DNA from: Flammeovirgaceae bacterium UBA976
GTDB taxonomy: Bacteria; Bacteroidota; Bacteroidia; Cytophagales; Cyclobacteriaceae
Direction of reading: 5' to 3'
NCBI GenBank assembly: GCA_002292365.1
Contig: DBBU01000044.1
Coordinates: 62,001 to 126,000 of the forward strand
DNA: 64,000 nt
Part shown: piece by piece, positions 9,032 through 20,618 of the stretch
How the letters are laid out: each line of letters begins with the position of its first letter
How positions within the stretch are numbered: the first letter of the stretch is position 1
Translations under genes and position numbers: made by a program
The notes under the pieces: generated by a model
Database searches by the model: none
What the model was told of the DNA's origin: nothing
The model's input: the letters and a program-made list of their open reading frames with translations, nothing else

Positions 9032-9844
9032 ATGTCAAATTTTAAAATCTTATATGTTGCTAGCGAAATTAATCCTTTTCTTAAGACATCTGAGGTAGCC
9101 GATTTCGTCCGGAGCTTGCCACAAGCAATGCTAGAAAAAGGAATGGAAATTAGAATTCTCGTACCTAGGTTTGGTTTGATAAATGAAAGAAAAAACAGAC
9201 TGCATGAAGTGGTTCGATTATCGGGAATAAATATTTCTGTCGGAGATGAAGAAAAACCTTTAGTGATTAAAGTCGCTTCAATCCCTAATGCCAAATTGCA
9301 AGTATATTTCATAGACAATGAAGACTATTTTCATAGAAAGGCTGTTTTTTATGATAAGCAAGATAACTTTTATAAGGATAATGATGAACGCGCGATTTTT
9401 TTCTGTAAAGGCGTTTTAGAAACTGTTAAAAAGCTGGGATGGGCACCTGACGTAATCCATTGTAATGATTGGATGACAAGCTTAATTCCTCTTTATGTTA
9501 AAATAACTTACAAAAACGATCCAATTTTCCAAAATGCAAAGACAGTATTTACTGTTCATGATACCAAATTTAACTATGTATTTGGAGATGACTTACTCGA
9601 AAAAGTCAAAATGATTGATATCGAAGACAGCATGTTAGATCTCCTAAAAACTGCAGATTATGAGGGTTTTATTAAGATAGGGATGCAATATGCCGATGCC
9701 ATAAGTAATGCTGATGGAGAAACGTCAGCTAGTTTTAAAACTTTGATAAAAACCCTCTCAAAGGGAAATGATATTAATGATATCAAGCAAGATGAAAATT
9801 TCGAGGAATCTTATTATAAACTTTACAATGAGCTTATTGGATAA
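9032..9844 (+). CDS. Glycogen/starch synthase-like protein, N-terminal GT5 domain only
   Basis: A 270-residue protein covering only the N-terminal Rossmann-like half of GT5 glycogen synthase. It has SEINPFLKTSEVADFVRSLP in place of the canonical KxGGL loop, IHCNDWMTSLIPLY (the HxxDW motif form), and FTVHDTKFNYVFG. The C-terminal domain carrying much of the ADP-glucose-binding site is absent (full GlgA is near 480 residues), and the gene ends normally, overlapping the next start. Short forms of this kind followed by DUF4270 and glmS recur in Bacteroidota, so this is a clade-specific form rather than a recent truncation. Whether it is catalytic is doubtful. Confidence 0.82.
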   Translation: MSNFKILYVASEINPFLKTSEVADFVRSLPQAMLEKGMEIRILVPRFGLINERKNRLHEVVRLSGINISVGDEEKPLVIKVASIPNAKLQVYFIDNEDYFHRKAVFYDKQDNFYKDNDERAIFFCKGVLETVKKLGWAPDVIHCNDWMTSLIPLYVKITYKNDPIFQNAKTVFTVHDTKFNYVFGDDLLEKVKMIDIEDSMLDLLKTADYEGFIKIGMQYADAISNADGETSASFKTLIKTLSKGNDINDIKQDENFEESYYKLYNELIG

Positions 9845-11150: not shown

Positions 11151-12986
11151 ATGTGTGGAATTGTAGCTTATATTGGAACTAAAAATGCCTTGAAAGTGCT
11201 TATCAAAGGGTTAAGAAGGCTGGAATATAGAGGTTATGACAGCTCAGGCATTGCCCTGATCGAAGAGGGATTAAGGGTTTTTAAAAAACAAGGCAAAGTC
11301 AAAGACTTAGTAAGGGAGATCGGTGATATCAAATTACGAGGGACCATCGGGATAGGGCATACGCGCTGGGCCACACATGGAATACCCAATGATGTCAATT
11401 CACATCCACATGTTTCAAAAAACAGTAAAATATCCATCGTTCATAATGGTATCATTGAAAATTATCAAGCCATTAAAACTGATCTAGAACTACGAGGCTA
11501 TACTTTTAAAAGTGATACCGACACGGAGGTGGTGGTATGCTTGATTGAGGATATCCAAAAAAACAGCCAGCTCCAGATTGGAGATGCGGTGAGAGTAGCT
11601 TTATCCAAAATTGAGGGCGCCTATGCACTCGTAGTTTTATCAGAGGACCAACCAGATAGATTGATTGCTGCAAGAAAGGGAAGCCCTATGGTTTTGGGTA
11701 TAGGTGAAGGGGAGTATTTTATAGCTTCAGATGCTTCACCTATCATAGAATACACAGATAAGGTTATTTATTTGAATGACGAAGAAATTACTGTGATAAC
11801 CCGCGAAGGCTATGAAATTAGAAATTTACAAGATGTTCCCCAGTTGCCTTACATTCAACAGTTAGATTTGGAACTTGAGGCTATTGAGAAAGCAGGATAT
11901 GATCATTTCATGCTTAAAGAGATTTTTGAGCAACCCCAATCAATAGCAGATGCCATGCGTGGTAGACTCGCCATTGATGCCCATAAATTAGTATTGGGAG
12001 GGATTCAAAAACATGCAGAGCAACTGGTTGAAGCTAAAAAGATAGTTATCATTGCTTGTGGTACCTCTTGGCATGCTGGTTTGGTTGCCGAATACCTTTT
12101 TGAGGATTTATGTAGGATTCCAGTTGAGGTGGAGTATGCCTCTGAATTTAGATATCGAAATCCTGTTATTGAGAAAGGAGACATGATTATAGCCATATCT
12201 CAATCAGGGGAGACGGCAGATACCTTAGCGGCGATTGAACTTGCTAAATCTAAGGGGACCATTATTTTAGGAGTCGTTAATTCAGTAGGGTCTTCTATCT
12301 CCAGGATCACCCACGAAGGTGCCTACTTGCACACAGGTCCAGAGATTGGCGTTGCCTCAACCAAAGCCTTCACAGGTCAACTAACCGTGCTTATCATGAT
12401 TGCCTTGAGAGTAGCCATACGTAAGCAAACGATTTCTTTACCTGCTTATCAGGATCTTTTAAAAGCGTTGCATCAAATTCCCAATAAGATCAAGCGGGTC
12501 CTTGAGAAAAATGATCAGATAAAAGAAATTTCAGCATCTATTAAAGAGGTTCCTAATGCTTTGTATTTGGGTCGGGGATATAATTTTCCAGTCGCCTTAG
12601 AAGGGGCCTTGAAATTAAAAGAAATTTCTTATATTCATGCCGAAGGTTATCCAGCAGCTGAAATGAAGCATGGGCCTATTGCCTTGGTTGATGAAAACAT
12701 GCCGGTCATTATAATTGCTACGCGAGATAATTCTTATGATAAAATTGTATCCAACATACAGGAAATCAAGGCAAGAAAAGGGATTGTGATTGCTGTGGTT
12801 ACTGAAGGAGATCTTTTAATTTCTAAGATGGCAGATTTTATCATTGAGGTACCTGATACGCCAGAATGTTTGATGCCCTTGTTATCTGTGATCCCTCTGC
12901 AGTTGCTGTCTTATCACATCGCACTGCTTAGAGGTTGCAATGTTGATCAGCCAAGAAACTTAGCTAAGTCGGTTACTGTGGAATGA
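11151..12986 (+). CDS. glmS: Glutamine--fructose-6-phosphate aminotransferase (isomerizing)
   Basis: GlmS makes glucosamine-6-phosphate from fructose-6-phosphate and glutamine, the first step to UDP-GlcNAc for peptidoglycan and lipopolysaccharide. The 611-residue length is typical. The N-terminal MCGIVAYIG gives the nucleophile Cys1 after methionine removal, followed by the RRLEYRGYDSSGIA and HTRWATHG glutaminase motifs. Two SIS domains follow (ACGTSWHAG, ISQSGETADTL), then EGYPAAEMKHGPIAL and the C-terminal PRNLAKSVTVE. It begins 6 bases after the DUF4270 gene. No glmS ribozyme is recognisable upstream; none would be expected in this phylum. Confidence 0.97.
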   Translation: MCGIVAYIGTKNALKVLIKGLRRLEYRGYDSSGIALIEEGLRVFKKQGKVKDLVREIGDIKLRGTIGIGHTRWATHGIPNDVNSHPHVSKNSKISIVHNGIIENYQAIKTDLELRGYTFKSDTDTEVVVCLIEDIQKNSQLQIGDAVRVALSKIEGAYALVVLSEDQPDRLIAARKGSPMVLGIGEGEYFIASDASPIIEYTDKVIYLNDEEITVITREGYEIRNLQDVPQLPYIQQLDLELEAIEKAGYDHFMLKEIFEQPQSIADAMRGRLAIDAHKLVLGGIQKHAEQLVEAKKIVIIACGTSWHAGLVAEYLFEDLCRIPVEVEYASEFRYRNPVIEKGDMIIAISQSGETADTLAAIELAKSKGTIILGVVNSVGSSISRITHEGAYLHTGPEIGVASTKAFTGQLTVLIMIALRVAIRKQTISLPAYQDLLKALHQIPNKIKRVLEKNDQIKEISASIKEVPNALYLGRGYNFPVALEGALKLKEISYIHAEGYPAAEMKHGPIALVDENMPVIIIATRDNSYDKIVSNIQEIKARKGIVIAVVTEGDLLISKMADFIIEVPDTPECLMPLLSVIPLQLLSYHIALLRGCNVDQPRNLAKSVTVE

Positions 12987-12987
12987 G

Positions 12988-13492: not shown

Positions 13493-13920
13493 ATATCAAC
13501 CCACAGATTTGTCTTTAGTGACTACAGTGGAGTAGCAGAAACAAACGGTTATCCTTACCCCTTAAACCTCATTGTAAGATTCTCATTTTCAGTTATTACC
13601 ACTAATCTTTGGGAATCAAATTATAGTGATTATCAAAAGTATTTATTCAATCGAATTTGTGGATATAAATAGAATAAATTAACCCCTATCGGTTACAGAA
13701 AGATTTCTAAATCTTCAATGATGAGGGATTAAAAACCCCTTTAAATACAGAATTTACCAACTCAAAAGTATATTCTATGTACAAAAAAGGTAAGATTAGA
13801 GAGGAAAGAATCAATAGAAAGGACATAGTTGAGGTAGGTCAAGTTTATATAGAACCAATAAAGTTTCCCATTAATGGGAAACTTACCTCAACATTAAACC
13901 TACTCCATTATTTACCATAA
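13493..13920 (+). pseudogene. Recombinase-type helix-turn-helix protein fragment B, frameshifted
   Basis: A broken gene readable in two frames. The first frame runs from about 13493, through DYSGVAETNGYPYPLNLIV, across an in-frame TAG near 13668 and into PIGYRKISK. A frameshift close to 13715 then leads to IFNDEGLKTPLNTEF, TNSKVYSMYKKGKIREERI and a TAA at 13918. The reconstructed YRKISKIFNDEGLKTPLN plus TNSKVYS is the same module type as fragment A (helix, then G-x-K-T-P-x-N, then a V-Y-S-x-x-K-K recognition helix). No start codon is seen. It is a decayed relative of fragment A, not a tandem copy. Confidence 0.55.
13861..13884. repeat. Perfect 24-base palindrome
   Basis: The half-site AAGTTTCCCATT is followed immediately by its exact reverse complement. 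Bases 13828-13835 (GTTGAGGT) and 13885-13892 (ACCTCAAC) can pair outside it, giving a larger stem-loop of about 65 bases. It lies within the pseudogene frame of fragment B, so it is either a coincidence of coding sequence, a protein-binding site, or the 5' edge of the structured segment downstream. Confidence 0.7.
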
Positions 13921-14009
13921 AATCCAACACCATTTAACACCCTTTCTGTCAAATAAAAAAACCTCTGAAATCTTAGTGTTATTAATTGTAGAATCATATT
14001 TATATATGA

Positions 14010-14400
14010 ACGAAAGTGGTAAGAAGTTACCACGGACTCAGGTGTCCAACAATGGGTAAAACACCTATCACCCAGTATCGAAGAGGTTCAAATCCTTAAA
14101 CGATATTTCGTAATGTTAATGGGTCAGACGTCGGTTAGTAATCTATAGGATTGAAATAATATCTAAACATAATGGATGAGGTTCACCGATAGGGTCGAAA
14201 GATTTGTAGTATAAATCAGATATGGGTGACAACGAACTGGTCTGAGGAAATCTACATTATTAATTGAGACTTAAAGTTCTCTGAGGGAGTAAAAATCCTT
14301 TAAGGGGATTGGTGTATTAGGTTATCAACCGATACAATATTTCAGTTAACAAGTAAACTGAAACGATGAGATGATTCTGAGAATCAGAAACACTCATCAA
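14010..14400 (+). ncRNA. Candidate structured RNA, unknown family
   Basis: A non-coding segment of about 390 bases with closely packed helices. They include GTGGTAA/TTACCAC (14016-14033, 4-base loop); AGGTGT/ACACCT (14040-14045 with 14061-14066), whose loop has TGGGT (14053-14057) able to pair with ACCCA (14070-14074), an H-type pseudoknot; GTATCG/CGATAT (14075-14080 with 14101-14106) enclosing a GG-TTCAAAT-CC T-loop hairpin; long-range TCAGAC/GTCTGA (14124-14129 with 14240-14245); GATTT/AAATC (14201-14217); a 7-pair hairpin 14294-14310; TTCAGTT/AACTGAA (14341-14362); and GATGAG/CTCATC (14365-14370 with 14393-14398) enclosing TGATTCT/AGAATCA. It ends about 20 bases before a ribosome-binding site. 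The strand is inferred from the downstream genes. I recognise no known riboswitch, intron or ribozyme core. Confidence 0.45.
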
Positions 14401-14419
14401 AGGTTAATTATTAAATAAT

Positions 14420-14425
14420 AAGGAG
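14420..14425 (+). promoter_or_regulatory. Strong Shine-Dalgarno sequence
   Basis: AAGGAG lies 8 bases before ATG 14434. Bacteroidota genes rarely use strong Shine-Dalgarno sites, so this near-consensus site decides the start of the 11-codon ORF and hints at foreign origin. Confidence 0.6.
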
Positions 14426-14433
14426 ATACAATT

Positions 14434-14469
14434 ATGAAGAAAGATTCAGGTCAACTACATGGTGAGTAA
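14434..14469 (+). CDS. 11-codon ORF (possible leader peptide)
   Basis: ATG to TAA encoding MKKDSGQLHGE, preceded by AAGGAG at ideal spacing. Its stop codon is directly followed by the ATG of the next ORF (TAAATG), an arrangement that supports termination-reinitiation coupling. It follows the candidate structured RNA by about 30 bases. It could be a regulatory leader peptide or the true translation entry point of the small operon. Peptide function is unknown. Confidence 0.45.
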   Translation: MKKDSGQLHGE

Positions 14470-14694
14470 ATGAGTAGTTTATATCAATTTACAAAGGAAA
14501 TAGGTTATCATTTACCACCTGACAAAATATTTGATACTACTACATCCTTAATTGATGTATTTGTGAGTTATGAAAGGTATAGAGAATCCATTATTTCAAA
14601 AACATCAAACTATTTAGAGGATAAGATTGGAGAATTACCAATTGAGAAACAAAAAAGATTAAAAGAAATATTTAAGAATGGAGTTAAAAAATGA
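14470..14694 (+). CDS. Hypothetical 74-residue helical protein
   Basis: Begins at ATG directly after the leader ORF stop and ends in an ATGA overlap with the next gene, so it is the middle of a translationally coupled trio. The protein is mostly helical and charged: an N-terminal YQFTKEIGYHLPPDKIFD segment, a central SYERYRESIISK, and a C-terminal ELPIEKQKRLKEIFKNG. No signal peptide or transmembrane helix is present. I do not recognise the family. Placement next to an excisionase-like gene suggests a role in a mobile element. Confidence 0.55.
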   Translation: MSSLYQFTKEIGYHLPPDKIFDTTTSLIDVFVSYERYRESIISKTSNYLEDKIGELPIEKQKRLKEIFKNGVKK

Positions 14695-14879
14695 ACGATA
14701 GATTGCTAACTAAATATGAGGTTATGGAAACCTTAAAAATCATCAGGAAACACTTTGAGAAATTGGTAAAAGAGAAAGAACTATCAATGATTCAAATAAC
14801 CCCATATAAGAGATATGTAAGAAGTTCTCACCTAAATCGATACATTGATAACATACCATCAATAAACCTCAGAAGATAA
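14691..14879 (+). CDS. Excisionase/MerR-type helix-turn-helix protein, 62 residues
   Basis: A 62-residue protein matching the layout of short helix-turn-helix 17 (excisionase) proteins: LLTKYEVMETLKI at residues 4-16 (first helix and turn), a recognition helix RKHFEKLVKEKEL, a wing with QITPYKRYVRSSH, then LNRYIDNI. Such proteins bind DNA to direct integrase-mediated excision or regulate element genes. It overlaps the preceding gene by ATGA. No integrase gene lies in the window, so it may act on one elsewhere or be a relic. Confidence 0.6.
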   Translation: MNDRLLTKYEVMETLKIIRKHFEKLVKEKELSMIQITPYKRYVRSSHLNRYIDNIPSINLRR

Positions 14880-14962
14880 CCCAAGAATCAGAAACAGATG
14901 AATTTAAATGGGAGAATATTTGGGGGAAGTGATGATAAATTAAATCACTATCCAATCACTTC

Positions 14963-15055
14963 TAACGTTTTTATTAATCTAAACTAAACGATTTTAAATT
15001 TTGTAAATTTGAAATCCATAGGAAGAATAAACATAATATGTTTATCCCCTCGTTA
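14963..15055 (+). repeat. attC-like hairpin site, left of the S41 peptidase gene
   Basis: Outer TAACG (14963-14967) and CGTTA (15051-15055) bracket a 93-base element whose 3' half contains ATAAACAT (15027-15034) and ATGTTTAT (15038-15045) with a 3-base loop. The 3' end reads GTTTATCCCCTCGTTA, closely like the right-hand site (GTTTATCCATGACGTTA). The peptidase ATG follows 10 bases after it. Length and layout fit integron attC sites, but the middle is not symmetrical. Confidence 0.45.
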
Positions 15056-15064
15056 CAACATTAA

Positions 15065-16495
15065 ATGAAATCGAAAATCAAAATATTATTTCTAACCATC
15101 CTATTGCCATTGATAGCTCTCGGTCAAAAACGACTCACCAATGAGCAGGTTTTGGAGGATTACAAGATTCTAAAAAATGTTTTAACAAAAGGACACCCCA
15201 ATTTATATGGATACACCTCTAAATCTGAATGGGACAGCCTGTTCACGGACTTTGAAGAGAATAAAATAACGACAATTGGCGACAACAATGATTTATATAA
15301 ATCTATTACCGAATTGACAGATTACGTTGGAGACGGGCACTTAATTGTTATGAGACCGCAGCTTGATTCTGTGCCTAACCTTTTTCCACTATGGTTAAAA
15401 ATAATCAATAAAAAGCTATATACCGATACTGATGATTTTGACATTCCAGTAGGTTCTGAAATAATTTCAATAGATGGAGTGAACGCAATGGAACTTAGAG
15501 ACAGGTTAATGAAATATGCTCCTTCAGATGGATTCAACGAAACTAAAAAAGACCGTCAAATAGAAATGAAATTTGGTATTCTGCACTTCTATGAGTTTGG
15601 GGCTAAACCTGCCTATCAAGTCGAATACAAAACTTCCAGTAATGAAGTTATTACAAATACTATTGAGAGCCAAACCTTTGAAAGTATAGGCAAGCGATTT
15701 ACGAAACGAAACTCATTTTTAGCACTAAAGACATTGAGTGAAAAAGGTCCTCACCTATATTTTATAGACTCACTTAAAACAGCAGTTTTAATCCTAAATA
15801 CCTTCAATTTGGATGTAGAGATGTTTAAACTAGCTTTAGTAGATATTTTTAAAAATATCAAAAGAAAGAAAGTAAAAAATCTTATCATTGATATTAGGCA
15901 GAATGAGGGAGGGTACCCTTTAAATACTATTAAGGCATTCTCTTATATAGCTAATGAACCTTTTAAACAACAGGTATCATCATACGTCACTACTGATATC
16001 CTTCCAGAAGAACAATACAGTCAAAATTTGGTCAATGGGTATACTTACGAGACTTTTTTTAAAAAATATTACCAAAATACCGAGAAGACAGAAAATGGAT
16101 GGAAATCAACAACGGACGAAAATGAGCCCCTTATGATTCCAAACAAAAAAAGGTTTGAAGGAAAAGTATATGTTCTTATTGGAGGAAAAACGTTTTCAGC
16201 TGGTTCGAGCTTTGCACTATTTTGTAAGAATCAAGGAATTACATTAGTTGGAGAAGAAATAGGTGGGAGTTACTATACGCAAACAGGAGGTTATCCGATA
16301 ATTTATACTTTACCAAATTCAAAAATTAAAGTACTAATTTCATTTGTCAAAATTAGTCGTTACACAAAAGATGAAACTGTAAAAAAAGGGAGTGGAATAA
16401 TGCCTGATATCGAAATCCCGCTGACAGTAAAGGACTTAATTAACAAGAAAGACAGTCAATTGGATTATGTGATAAAACAAATAAACAAGGAATAA
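15065..16495 (+). CDS. S41-family peptidase, exported
   Basis: A 476-residue protein with a signal peptide (residues 1-20, ending IALGQ). The N-terminal helical domain has LTNEQVLEDYKILKNVL and TDYVGDGHLIVMRP, followed by a PDZ-like IISIDGVNAMELRDRL. The tail-specific protease core is at the C-terminus: LIIDIRQNEGGYPLNTIKAF, then GGKTFSAGSSFALFCKNQG with the likely nucleophilic serine, and EEIGGSYY. It is predicted to cleave peptides in the periplasm or extracellularly. The coding region starts 10 bases after one attC-like site and its stop overlaps the next one, the tight packing expected of an integron cassette. Substrate unknown. Confidence 0.85.
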   Translation: MKSKIKILFLTILLPLIALGQKRLTNEQVLEDYKILKNVLTKGHPNLYGYTSKSEWDSLFTDFEENKITTIGDNNDLYKSITELTDYVGDGHLIVMRPQLDSVPNLFPLWLKIINKKLYTDTDDFDIPVGSEIISIDGVNAMELRDRLMKYAPSDGFNETKKDRQIEMKFGILHFYEFGAKPAYQVEYKTSSNEVITNTIESQTFESIGKRFTKRNSFLALKTLSEKGPHLYFIDSLKTAVLILNTFNLDVEMFKLALVDIFKNIKRKKVKNLIIDIRQNEGGYPLNTIKAFSYIANEPFKQQVSSYVTTDILPEEQYSQNLVNGYTYETFFKKYYQNTEKTENGWKSTTDENEPLMIPNKKRFEGKVYVLIGGKTFSAGSSFALFCKNQGITLVGEEIGGSYYTQTGGYPIIYTLPNSKIKVLISFVKISRYTKDETVKKGSGIMPDIEIPLTVKDLINKKDSQLDYVIKQINKE

Positions 16496-19409: not shown

Positions 19410-20618
19410 ATGATACAGATAGGAATAATAAAGGAAGAAAAAGTTCCGATAGATCATCGCGTGCCCATTACGCCTGCCCAGTCCGCACAGATTCAGAGAG
19501 ATTTTCCAAAGGTGCGGATAAAGGTCCAAAGTAGTAGCATCAGGTGTTATCCTGATGAGGACTACAGAAAGGAAGGTATAGAGATTGTTCCTTCTGTTAA
19601 GGATTGTGATATTTTGATGGGCGTTAAAGAAGTACCTATACCTTCTTTAATTGCTGATAAAACCTATTTATTTTTTTCTCATACGATTAAAAAACAGATC
19701 TACAACCGGAATTTATTGCGTGCCATTTTAGAAAAAAACATTCGAATTATTGATTACGAGGCATTGATCAATGAGCATGGCCATCGAATTGTAGCCTTTG
19801 GGAGATGGGCAGGGATCGTAGGTGCCTATAATGCTATATGGACTTATGGAAAGAGGTATAATATGTTCACAATCAAACGGGTCCATGATTGCTTTGATTT
19901 CGAAGATTTAAAAACCGAATACTCAAAAGTGAGGTTACCCTCCATTAAAATTGCCGTTACGGGCGGAGGCCGCGTATCAAAAGGCGTAATGGAAGTCCTT
20001 TTGGCGATGAACATTAAAATGGTATCTCCTGCTGCTTTTATAGAACGTGTATTTGATGTTCCTGTATTTTGCCAACTCAATACAAGAGATTATTGTAAGC
20101 ACAAATCCGGAGAATCGTTTGTCAGATCTTCTTTTTATAGTTCTCCAGAAGATTACCAAGGGGATTTTTTAAAATATGCACAAGTAGCTGATGTATTGAT
20201 TGCTGGTGCCTATTGGGACCCTAGGGGGCCCGTTTTGTTTGAGCGGGAGGATGTATTAAAAAATAACTTCAAAATCAGAATCATTGCTGATATTACTTGC
20301 GATATTCAGGGGTCTATCCCTTCTACGCTGCGCTCATGCACGATTGATGAGCCTATTTACGATTATAATCCAAGTGAGGATGTCGTAGAATTACCCTTGA
20401 CTGATGAGGCGAATATTACCGTAATGGCTGTAGACAATTTACCTTGTGAACTTTCAAGAGATTCTTCAGAAAGTTTTGGGGATGAGCTTATTAATAATGT
20501 TTTGCCTTATTTAATAGGGGAGGATACATTTGGCAGGATTGCAAATGCAACGGTAGCAGAGAGGGGCCGGTTATCTGGCAAATATGATTACTTGAAAGAT
20601 TATGTAGAGGGGAGATAA
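19410..20618 (+). CDS. Saccharopine/alanine dehydrogenase-like NAD(P)-dependent oxidoreductase
   Basis: A 402-residue member of the alanine dehydrogenase / PNT and L-lysine-forming saccharopine dehydrogenase fold. The N-terminal domain begins IGIIKEEKVPIDHRVPITPA, with the conserved lysine and arginine of the family, and VPSVKDCDILMGVKEVP. The NAD-binding domain starts at KIAVTGGGRVSKGVMEVLLA (glycine-rich loop). ADITCDIQGSIPSTLRSCTI and LPLTDEANITVMAVDNLPCE lie in the closing substrate domain. It probably acts on a lysine- or alanine-derived substrate; which one cannot be said. It lies 69 bases after the small gltX partner. Confidence 0.82.
   Translation: MIQIGIIKEEKVPIDHRVPITPAQSAQIQRDFPKVRIKVQSSSIRCYPDEDYRKEGIEIVPSVKDCDILMGVKEVPIPSLIADKTYLFFSHTIKKQIYNRNLLRAILEKNIRIIDYEALINEHGHRIVAFGRWAGIVGAYNAIWTYGKRYNMFTIKRVHDCFDFEDLKTEYSKVRLPSIKIAVTGGGRVSKGVMEVLLAMNIKMVSPAAFIERVFDVPVFCQLNTRDYCKHKSGESFVRSSFYSSPEDYQGDFLKYAQVADVLIAGAYWDPRGPVLFEREDVLKNNFKIRIIADITCDIQGSIPSTLRSCTIDEPIYDYNPSEDVVELPLTDEANITVMAVDNLPCELSRDSSESFGDELINNVLPYLIGEDTFGRIANATVAERGRLSGKYDYLKDYVEGR

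Follow-up and report, generated by a model that had tools for sequence, protein, structure and literature searches.

Ornate RNAs borne by phages are a known, loose group. In excerpts of PMC12286853, GOLLD and ROOL are placed near tRNA islands and described as forming nanocages, and GOLLD is pulled down with ribosomes; an excerpt of PMC7567579 reports an abundant noncoding RNA of ~800 nt in the ICP1 lysis cluster. Here we describe an RNA encoded in a 64,000-nucleotide stretch of DNA from Flammeovirgaceae bacterium UBA976 (the window), for which an original prediction, made from the letters alone, had proposed a structured, non-coding RNA upstream of a small excisionase-like operon, possibly belonging to a mobile element. 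Its family connects two kinds of carrier: phages of Bacteroidota, part of which have crAss-like-related terminases, and bacterial integrative elements that carry restriction genes as cargo.

The window RNA and its fold

The predicted fold of region 14000-14435 has an energy of -109.3 kcal/mol; dinucleotide shuffles average -86.6 kcal/mol (z -4.08; 0 of 100 equal to it). The region holds no open reading frame of at least 50 aa. The prediction of a structured RNA is borne out, since the fold beats 100 of 100 shuffles and compensatory change is found in the family, and its non-coding character holds as well. Fold energy taken alone is weak evidence, because the single-sequence fold of the first homologue is no better than its shuffles (z -0.27; 37 of 100 as good); the case is carried by comparison.

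Helix P0 closes a multi-branch junction of a hairpin, P1 and P2/P3/P3b. The 5' end of the RNA, which forms P0, partners the bases right after a CCGATA motif, and the helix encloses the hairpin, often AUC before P1, the linker CAGAA, P2 (GUCGG/CCGAU), U-GUA, P3 and P3b. Where present, P3b is capped by a loop of the UGAAAUAAY type, which we take to be T-loop-like; the UAUAA/GAAA internal loop of the 3' arm presumably resembles the UAA/GAN motif. The core is about 110-190 nt long; by eye, the whole RNA measures about 280-450 nt. In the window the parts are as follows.

14016-14033: added hairpin before P0 in the window (by eye)
14034..14203, + strand: 5' core, with the bounds of covariance model R2 (E 2e-24; the window is outside the R2 seed)
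14035..14039, + strand: P0 5' strand GACTC, partner GGGTC at 14192-14196
14192..14196, + strand: P0 3' strand, with covariation in the 51-sequence alignment A9
14040..14066, + strand: hairpin 1, 14040-14045 with 14061-14066; outer pair compensatory in the first homologue
14070..14074, + strand: P1 5' strand ACCCA, partner TGGGT at 14120-14124
14130..14135, + strand: P2 5' strand GTCGGT, partner ACCGAT at 14185-14190; the most conserved helix
14141..14177, + strand: P3, 14141-14146 with 14172-14177, enclosing P3b (A9 helices 4 and 5)
within 14141..14177, + strand: P3b, 14148-14151 with 14161-14164, with the 9-nt loop TGAAATAAT
14205..14256, + strand: 3' arm, stem P4, 14205-14209 with 14252-14256
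within 14205..14256, + strand: 3' arm, stem P5, 14216-14220 with 14241-14245
within 14205..14256, + strand: 3' arm internal loop TATAAA/GGAAAT between P4 and P5
14294..14310, + strand: 3' hairpin, 14294-14299 with 14305-14310, inside the AAGGGG(A)... 3' motif (by eye)

Between the window and the first homologue (G006), 5 of 23 nested pairs are doubly compensatory, two of the compensatory pairs lying in P3 and two in P4, and none is broken. Across 12 sequences, 97.1% of cells are paired, against 30-49% in slid versions, and 19 of 28 pairs show double changes; these values were reached by 0 of 500 shuffles. Alignment A9 covers the five-helix core P0/P1/P2/P3/P3b in 51 distinct sequences and was fitted to the covariance model, which favours its pairing figures: 94.5% of cells are paired, compared with 31-44% in slid and 66.8% in shuffled controls. 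Double changes fill 343 cells of A9, against 41-64 in slid and 92 in shuffled controls, and occur in 23 of 28 pairs, a measure on which 2 of 500 shuffles did equally well. By helix, the paired cells amount to 89.8% for P0, 92.6% for P1, 99.7% for P2, 94.1% for P3 and 99.0% for P3b, the last being without letters in about half of the sequences; the innermost pair of P2 is changed on both sides in 26 sequences. A model-free rule, demanding an exact 5-base Watson-Crick partner, was also applied to 39 loci outside the seed and to mismatched trials. It recovered P0 at 22 of 39 loci versus 36 of 1434 trials (2.5%) and P1 at 30 of 39 versus 123 of 1412 (8.7%).

The 3' domain differs strongly between subgroups. 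The arm, scored as UAUAA opposite GAAA with 10 of 10 flanking bases paired, occurs at 12 of 50 loci, among them the window, whereas eight shuffled sets gave 0-2; the remaining 38 of 50 fail the arm test, and at some loci the two loop strands stand in swapped order. That this is a real RNA family, its shape kept while its letters change, is virtually certain. Widespread structured RNA classes with covariation beyond doubt are uncommon finds.

Comparison within the family also revises the helices first proposed. Of an H-type pseudoknot at 14040-14074, the hairpin 14040-14045/14061-14066 is kept, with a compensatory outer pair in a relative, and the second stem falls away, as 14070-14073 pair family-wide with 14121-14124 in the covarying P1. 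A long-range helix, 14124-14129 with 14240-14245, does not stand: one pair is lost in the first homologue, and the helix claims bases of P1 (14124) and P5 (14241-14245). For the hairpins put at 14310-14400, inspection by eye shows conservation in L040, a close relative, and partial conservation in L050; the family at large gave no sign of them.

Membership of the family

The Infernal search of Rfam 15, one of the checks proposed for this RNA, returned nothing for the window at the gathering threshold or at E up to 1, in agreement with the earlier view that it is no known riboswitch, intron core or tmRNA; nor did 10 loci of the family match at E up to 5. Another proposed check, for homologues, found relatives with covariation in the 5' core helices. 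In a BLAST search of 195 relative genomes, a single clear homologue turned up apart from the window's own copy; its genome is of the same genus (G006, 77% over 194 bases). A covariance model made from the window and G006 sequences (R1) gave 15 matches at E <= 0.1 in 390 genomes of the family, of which six were judged real (the own copy, G006, G389, G269, G452 and G431), and in 295 genomes of the class it added G516, from another family (E 1.2e-29). An exact pattern of the core matched 8 loci in named genomes, three of them the same records as G269, G006 and G431, and 9 viral contigs. Looser patterns gave 40 and 22 viral stretches, which overlap, and the first, stringent viral pattern had 0 matches.

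In all, 52 viral loci were found, of which 50 were kept after L060 and L074 had been dropped, together with 13 bacterial loci (the window, L027, L028, L029, L030, L031, L035, L036, L037, L038, L040, L050 and L120). Covariance model R2, built from 12 sequences with the window not among them, matched 57 of 57 sources, 55 at E <=2.1e-6 (the window at 2e-24) and L060 and L074 at 0.004; seven viral loci with a core identical to that of an included locus were left out of this run. In 395 genomes of the phylum, R2 met only the own copy and one match judged to be chance. The search of 291 order genomes with R3 brought in G1132, which belongs to yet another family (E 7.4e-24); two more matches fell within open frames.

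Several candidates were rejected. L060 and L074 (E 0.004 with R2) are sited in a 500-aa open frame and were judged chance matches, as were L095/G857, which is without the P2/P3 core, L021 (E 1.5e-4), L118/L119 and L116, each of these inside an open frame of at least 339 aa. The weak R1 matches L018-L020 and L022-L026 missed E 0.1 with R2. The BLAST pieces L003-L012 (E 3.5e-5 to 0.008) were put down to chance or to the ribosome-binding-site region and showed no wider match. With blastn against annotated phages, four of five queries had no match; in the fifth, 40 bases of the flank matched an HTH gene of a Clostridioides phage. A search of plasmids with the window RNA yielded no match.

No paper naming the RNA came up in the literature searches, which took in excerpts of PMC7567579, PMC12286853, PMC2864571 and PMC8040213. 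Thousands of candidate RNAs are reported in the excerpt of PMC8040213, and a fragment of the family may figure in its supplementary motif lists. The family appears to be new, undescribed in the databases or literature searched, and it would be new at the level of RNA class, because no Rfam family of phage-borne ornate RNAs matches.

Settings in bacterial elements and phages

The window copy sits in a decayed element, whose features are these.

12972..12987, + strand: att-like 3' end of glmS, with similar copies near 13527, 16655, 16696 and 16973
13524..15054, + strand: segment common to the window and L040, where it directly follows glmS (87% over 1542 columns)
14434..14469, + strand: start of ORF A, with a premature stop at codon 12 and an in-frame remainder at 14470-14694
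14691..14879, + strand: ORF B, a small HTH_17-like protein (Pfam HTH_17 E 0.0074, below the cut-off)

The segment 13524..15054 is what remains of an element that had inserted at the 3' end of glmS, a site shared by four loci (the window, L040, L027 and L050); glmS itself was named from its domains and its similarity to the L040 segment. The helices of the window RNA are intact although the surrounding element has decayed. ORF A is intact in L040 and L050, in a relative the HTH gene reaches E 2.9e-6 for HTH_17, and no recombinase was seen in the window segment. The idea of an RNA of a mobile element gains support here, as the glmS-site segment recurs in another organism and same-site relatives carry large serine recombinases. 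The proposed position upstream of an excisionase-like operon is confirmed in so far as the downstream HTH gene is present, in this clade only; phage copies have other neighbours, and 11 of 25 near a terminase run against it.

In L027, a direct repeat (9230-9245 and 19962-19977) bounds an apparently complete element of ~10.7 kb with apparent attL/attR at glmS; the repeat includes the last glmS bases and recurs just after a large serine recombinase gene. L050 also encodes a large serine recombinase. Five same-strand copies resembling the glmS 3' end (core GTGGARTR; 12978, 13527, 16655, 16696 and 16973) lie in the window within 4 kb of the glmS 3' end and suggest repeated integrations at the glmS site; the core GTGGARTR by itself is frequent (11 matches in the window against an expectation of about 9). 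An S41-family peptidase (15065-16495) between the RNA element and the last att-like repeats may be cargo, and a perfect 24-base palindrome (13861-13884) stands upstream of the RNA in the element. A protein of ~170 aa looks, by sight, to be common to L050 (10194-10694), L027 (16241-16777) and the short 'viral' contig L047 (3873-4400). In L037, the likeness to the window stops at ~739, where the RNA has its 3' end (GGGGATTGGTG); recombination may have taken place there.

Each of the 32 viral records has one clear copy, and one record adds a weak second match (E 0.11). In L072, a large protein encoded close to the RNA is a terminase large subunit; its relatives include the terminases of crAss-like phages, of Leptolyngbya phage Lbo-JY46 and of Cellulophaga phages phi4:1 and phi17:2 (22-40% identity among the matches listed). 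Because PF03237 lacked the sensitivity to recognise such terminases (0 of 32 records above the cut-off, 2 weak matches), we used phrog_6681, which was found in 29 of 32 records and in 0 of 14 control genomes. In 25 of 29 records, no more than 10 kb separate the RNA from TerL; in 24 of these 25 it is on the upstream side, usually 2-9 kb away, and it shares the TerL strand in 14 of 25 and is opposite in 11. Among records of at least 80 kb, 10 of 14 have it within 10 kb, where chance would give 18% on average (binomial P 2e-5, with no correction for relatedness). In L043, L072 and L079, the larger genes flanking the RNA on either side run opposite to it. In relatives, the region upstream of TerL also holds tRNAs; a tRNA scan of 60 loci found tRNAs in the stretch examined at 12 and none at 48, and seven stand beside the RNA in L064. 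In G1120 (C1:22911-25139), TGA may be recoded, since it is the only stop codon in a terminase reading frame and occurs there eight times in frame.

R2 and R3 were run over the full length of 18 annotated phage records whose terminases are related. With R2, phi4:1 and phi17:2 each had a single match (E 6.4e-5), limited to P3 and its flanks. A tRNA array and one small CDS precede the gap of about 0.47 kb, free of ORFs, that holds the phi4:1 match; that in phi17:2 is in the corresponding gap after a tRNA array. By eye, P0, P1 and P2 can pair there as well. R3 missed both phages genome-wide and, with filters off, found the P3 part of phi4:1 (E 0.002). The two Cellulophaga phages are probable members of the family. 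Two further matches, R2 in DAC15 (W16; E 0.68) and R3 in csAssE-Sib (E 0.06, inside an annotated CDS), were taken to be chance. Presence is patchy, at 6 of 390 family genomes and 2 of 18 annotated phages with a related TerL. From the few matches in related phages, in which diverged copies can be missed, the RNA looks accessory and not a fixed part of the lineage, and we hold with moderate confidence that it is an accessory gene of phages and mobile elements.

An exact TAnnTTTG, which we take to be the Bacteroidota -7 consensus, occurs within 28 nt upstream of P0 at 18 of 51 loci, against 1.8% of background pieces, and at -10 to -13 in 17 of the 18. At a threshold of at least 5 of 6, the element is found at 27 of 51 loci, against 18.1% of background. 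About a third of the loci have a predicted promoter of their own, its exact -7 element about 11 nt upstream of P0. The other 33 of 51 are without an exact element, the window among them (3 of 6); by eye, the close clade has a TATTTATA-like stretch in its place, farther from P0 in the window and L040 because of the added hairpin. The case for a free-standing transcript is good.

Possible roles and known counterparts

We consider it probable that this is a free-standing accessory RNA of large Bacteroidota phages and integrative elements, with its own transcription and forming a new family; that it is free-standing and acts in trans we hold to be highly likely. Transcription would start at P0, and the RNA, folding alone, would act in trans: it would bind a protein or a ribonucleoprotein while an infection proceeds or an element becomes established. 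Host machinery or defence may be the most likely target class, preferred because most bacterial copies outside glmS adjoin restriction genes. The case for any specific partner is thin.

By analogy with GOLLD and ROOL, the RNA might instead oligomerise or bind ribosomes and be abundant late in infection, with no tie to restriction. The setting in phages and mobile elements is of the same kind; in some cases tRNA arrays adjoin the RNA (L064 and the phi4:1 and phi17:2 candidates), and in others the terminase cluster lies downstream. However, Rfam matches neither RNA, the present one is shorter, and 48 of 60 loci are without tRNA in the stretch examined, so that we regard such a role as possible though somewhat unlikely.

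A part in defence or counter-defence can be entertained tentatively. In six of the nine bacterial loci outside glmS, representing about four lineages (a raw count), restriction genes lie near the RNA: L030 has Type I R-M subunits R, S and M with PrrC; L036 has HsdM and a specificity subunit (by Pfam) about 2 kb away, with a DnaB-like gene between; L120 has Type I R, S and M together with PDC-S11, a candidate defence family; L028 and, by Pfam, the closely related L035 have a Type ISP/IIG R-M with Mrr_cat; and L029 has ResIII with Mrr_cat_2. Phage-integrase-type integrases are nearby in L029, L030, L036 and L120. L031 and L037 are close to contig ends, and L038 shows no restriction gene by eye. 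The RNA could act as a decoy or inhibitor of restriction or anticodon nucleases, or as a guard for the element's restriction system, and its accessory nature in phages and the PrrC of L030 agree with this. Yet such islands are rich in restriction systems anyway, the orientation of the RNA relative to the restriction genes varies, the glmS elements carry other cargo, and no restriction gene was seen by eye in them or beside the phage copies with listed ORFs; spelled out in this way, the explanation is rather doubtful. Narrower still, and unlikely, is a trans-acting RNA that would counter or control host restriction and tRNA-cutting defence, in large crAss-like-related phages and in integrative elements with restriction systems of their own. 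If true, RNA-based anti-defence would be exchanged between phages and mobile islands.

As a cis-acting leader, the RNA would control the genes downstream by attenuation, antitermination or as a riboswitch, here ORF A and ORF B, which follow on the same strand in the window, L040 and L050; in 14 of 25 phages the RNA is also on the TerL strand. It is opposite to TerL in the other 11, the flanks are reversed in L043, L072 and L079, and downstream genes differ between clades, a constant same-strand position upstream of one gene class not being found. Because strand and neighbours change, a leader fails as the general role, and we think it quite improbable.

Gene order makes it conceivable that the RNA would act with the terminase as a packaging RNA comparable to the pRNA of phi29, likewise a phage RNA, the present family being encoded near terminase: TerL is no more than 10 kb from 25 of 29 copies, and from 10 of 14 where the record is at least 80 kb, and 29 of 32 carriers have TerL family phrog_6681. 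A phi29-type pRNA is needed for packaging and would hence be expected in all phages of a lineage. The present RNA was found with R2 in 2 of 18 related phages searched, and Rfam has no match. The proposal is weakened by these missing matches, 16 of the 18 annotated phages with a related TerL being without a credible one, although strongly diverged copies could be missed. In addition, bacterial elements carry the RNA with no terminase noticed there, and tRNAs too occupy the region upstream of TerL in relatives. We judge packaging very unlikely.

That the RNA is a ribozyme, an intron or a guide of the HEARO/omega kind, a suggestion for which we found no evidence and to which we give almost no credence, would suit its mobile context and ornate fold, but Rfam has no match, no interrupted gene was noticed, no IscB, TnpB or reverse transcriptase was noticed by eye among the listed neighbouring ORFs, and an early idea of a group I intron core was dropped for want of an Rfam match and of fitting helices.

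For the preferred reading of a free-standing accessory RNA acting in trans, cultured material exists in Belliella buryatensis strain 5C and in the probable members phi4:1 and phi17:2.

Among described RNAs, group I and II introns and HEARO/omega RNA had no Rfam match in the window or 10 loci, and neither ARAGORN nor Rfam matched a tmRNA or tRNA in the window RNA. 6S-Flavo RNA (RF01685), too, is a Bacteroidota noncoding RNA, but there is no Rfam match. With the ~800-nt ICP1 RNA, the family shares a noncoding transcript, here a predicted one, at the edge of a gene cluster (lysis in ICP1, terminase here); host and size are different, and the two are set apart by description. Similar in setting, but unrelated, are ROOL and GOLLD. 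Like the present RNA, ROOL is encoded by phages or prophages and has no assigned function; it is often found near tRNA islands, a setting that some loci here share. Its Rfam covariance model does not match, and the core described here is about 110-190 nt. GOLLD is likewise phage-borne and built of a conserved and a variable domain, and it lies near tRNAs, as part of the loci here do; its Rfam covariance model has no match in the window or, at E up to 5, in 10 loci. Many GOLLD RNAs are longer than 800 nt, and their conserved part is the 3' end. The present RNA is conserved at the 5' end and offers a compact, tractable case for learning what large phage RNAs such as GOLLD and ROOL do.
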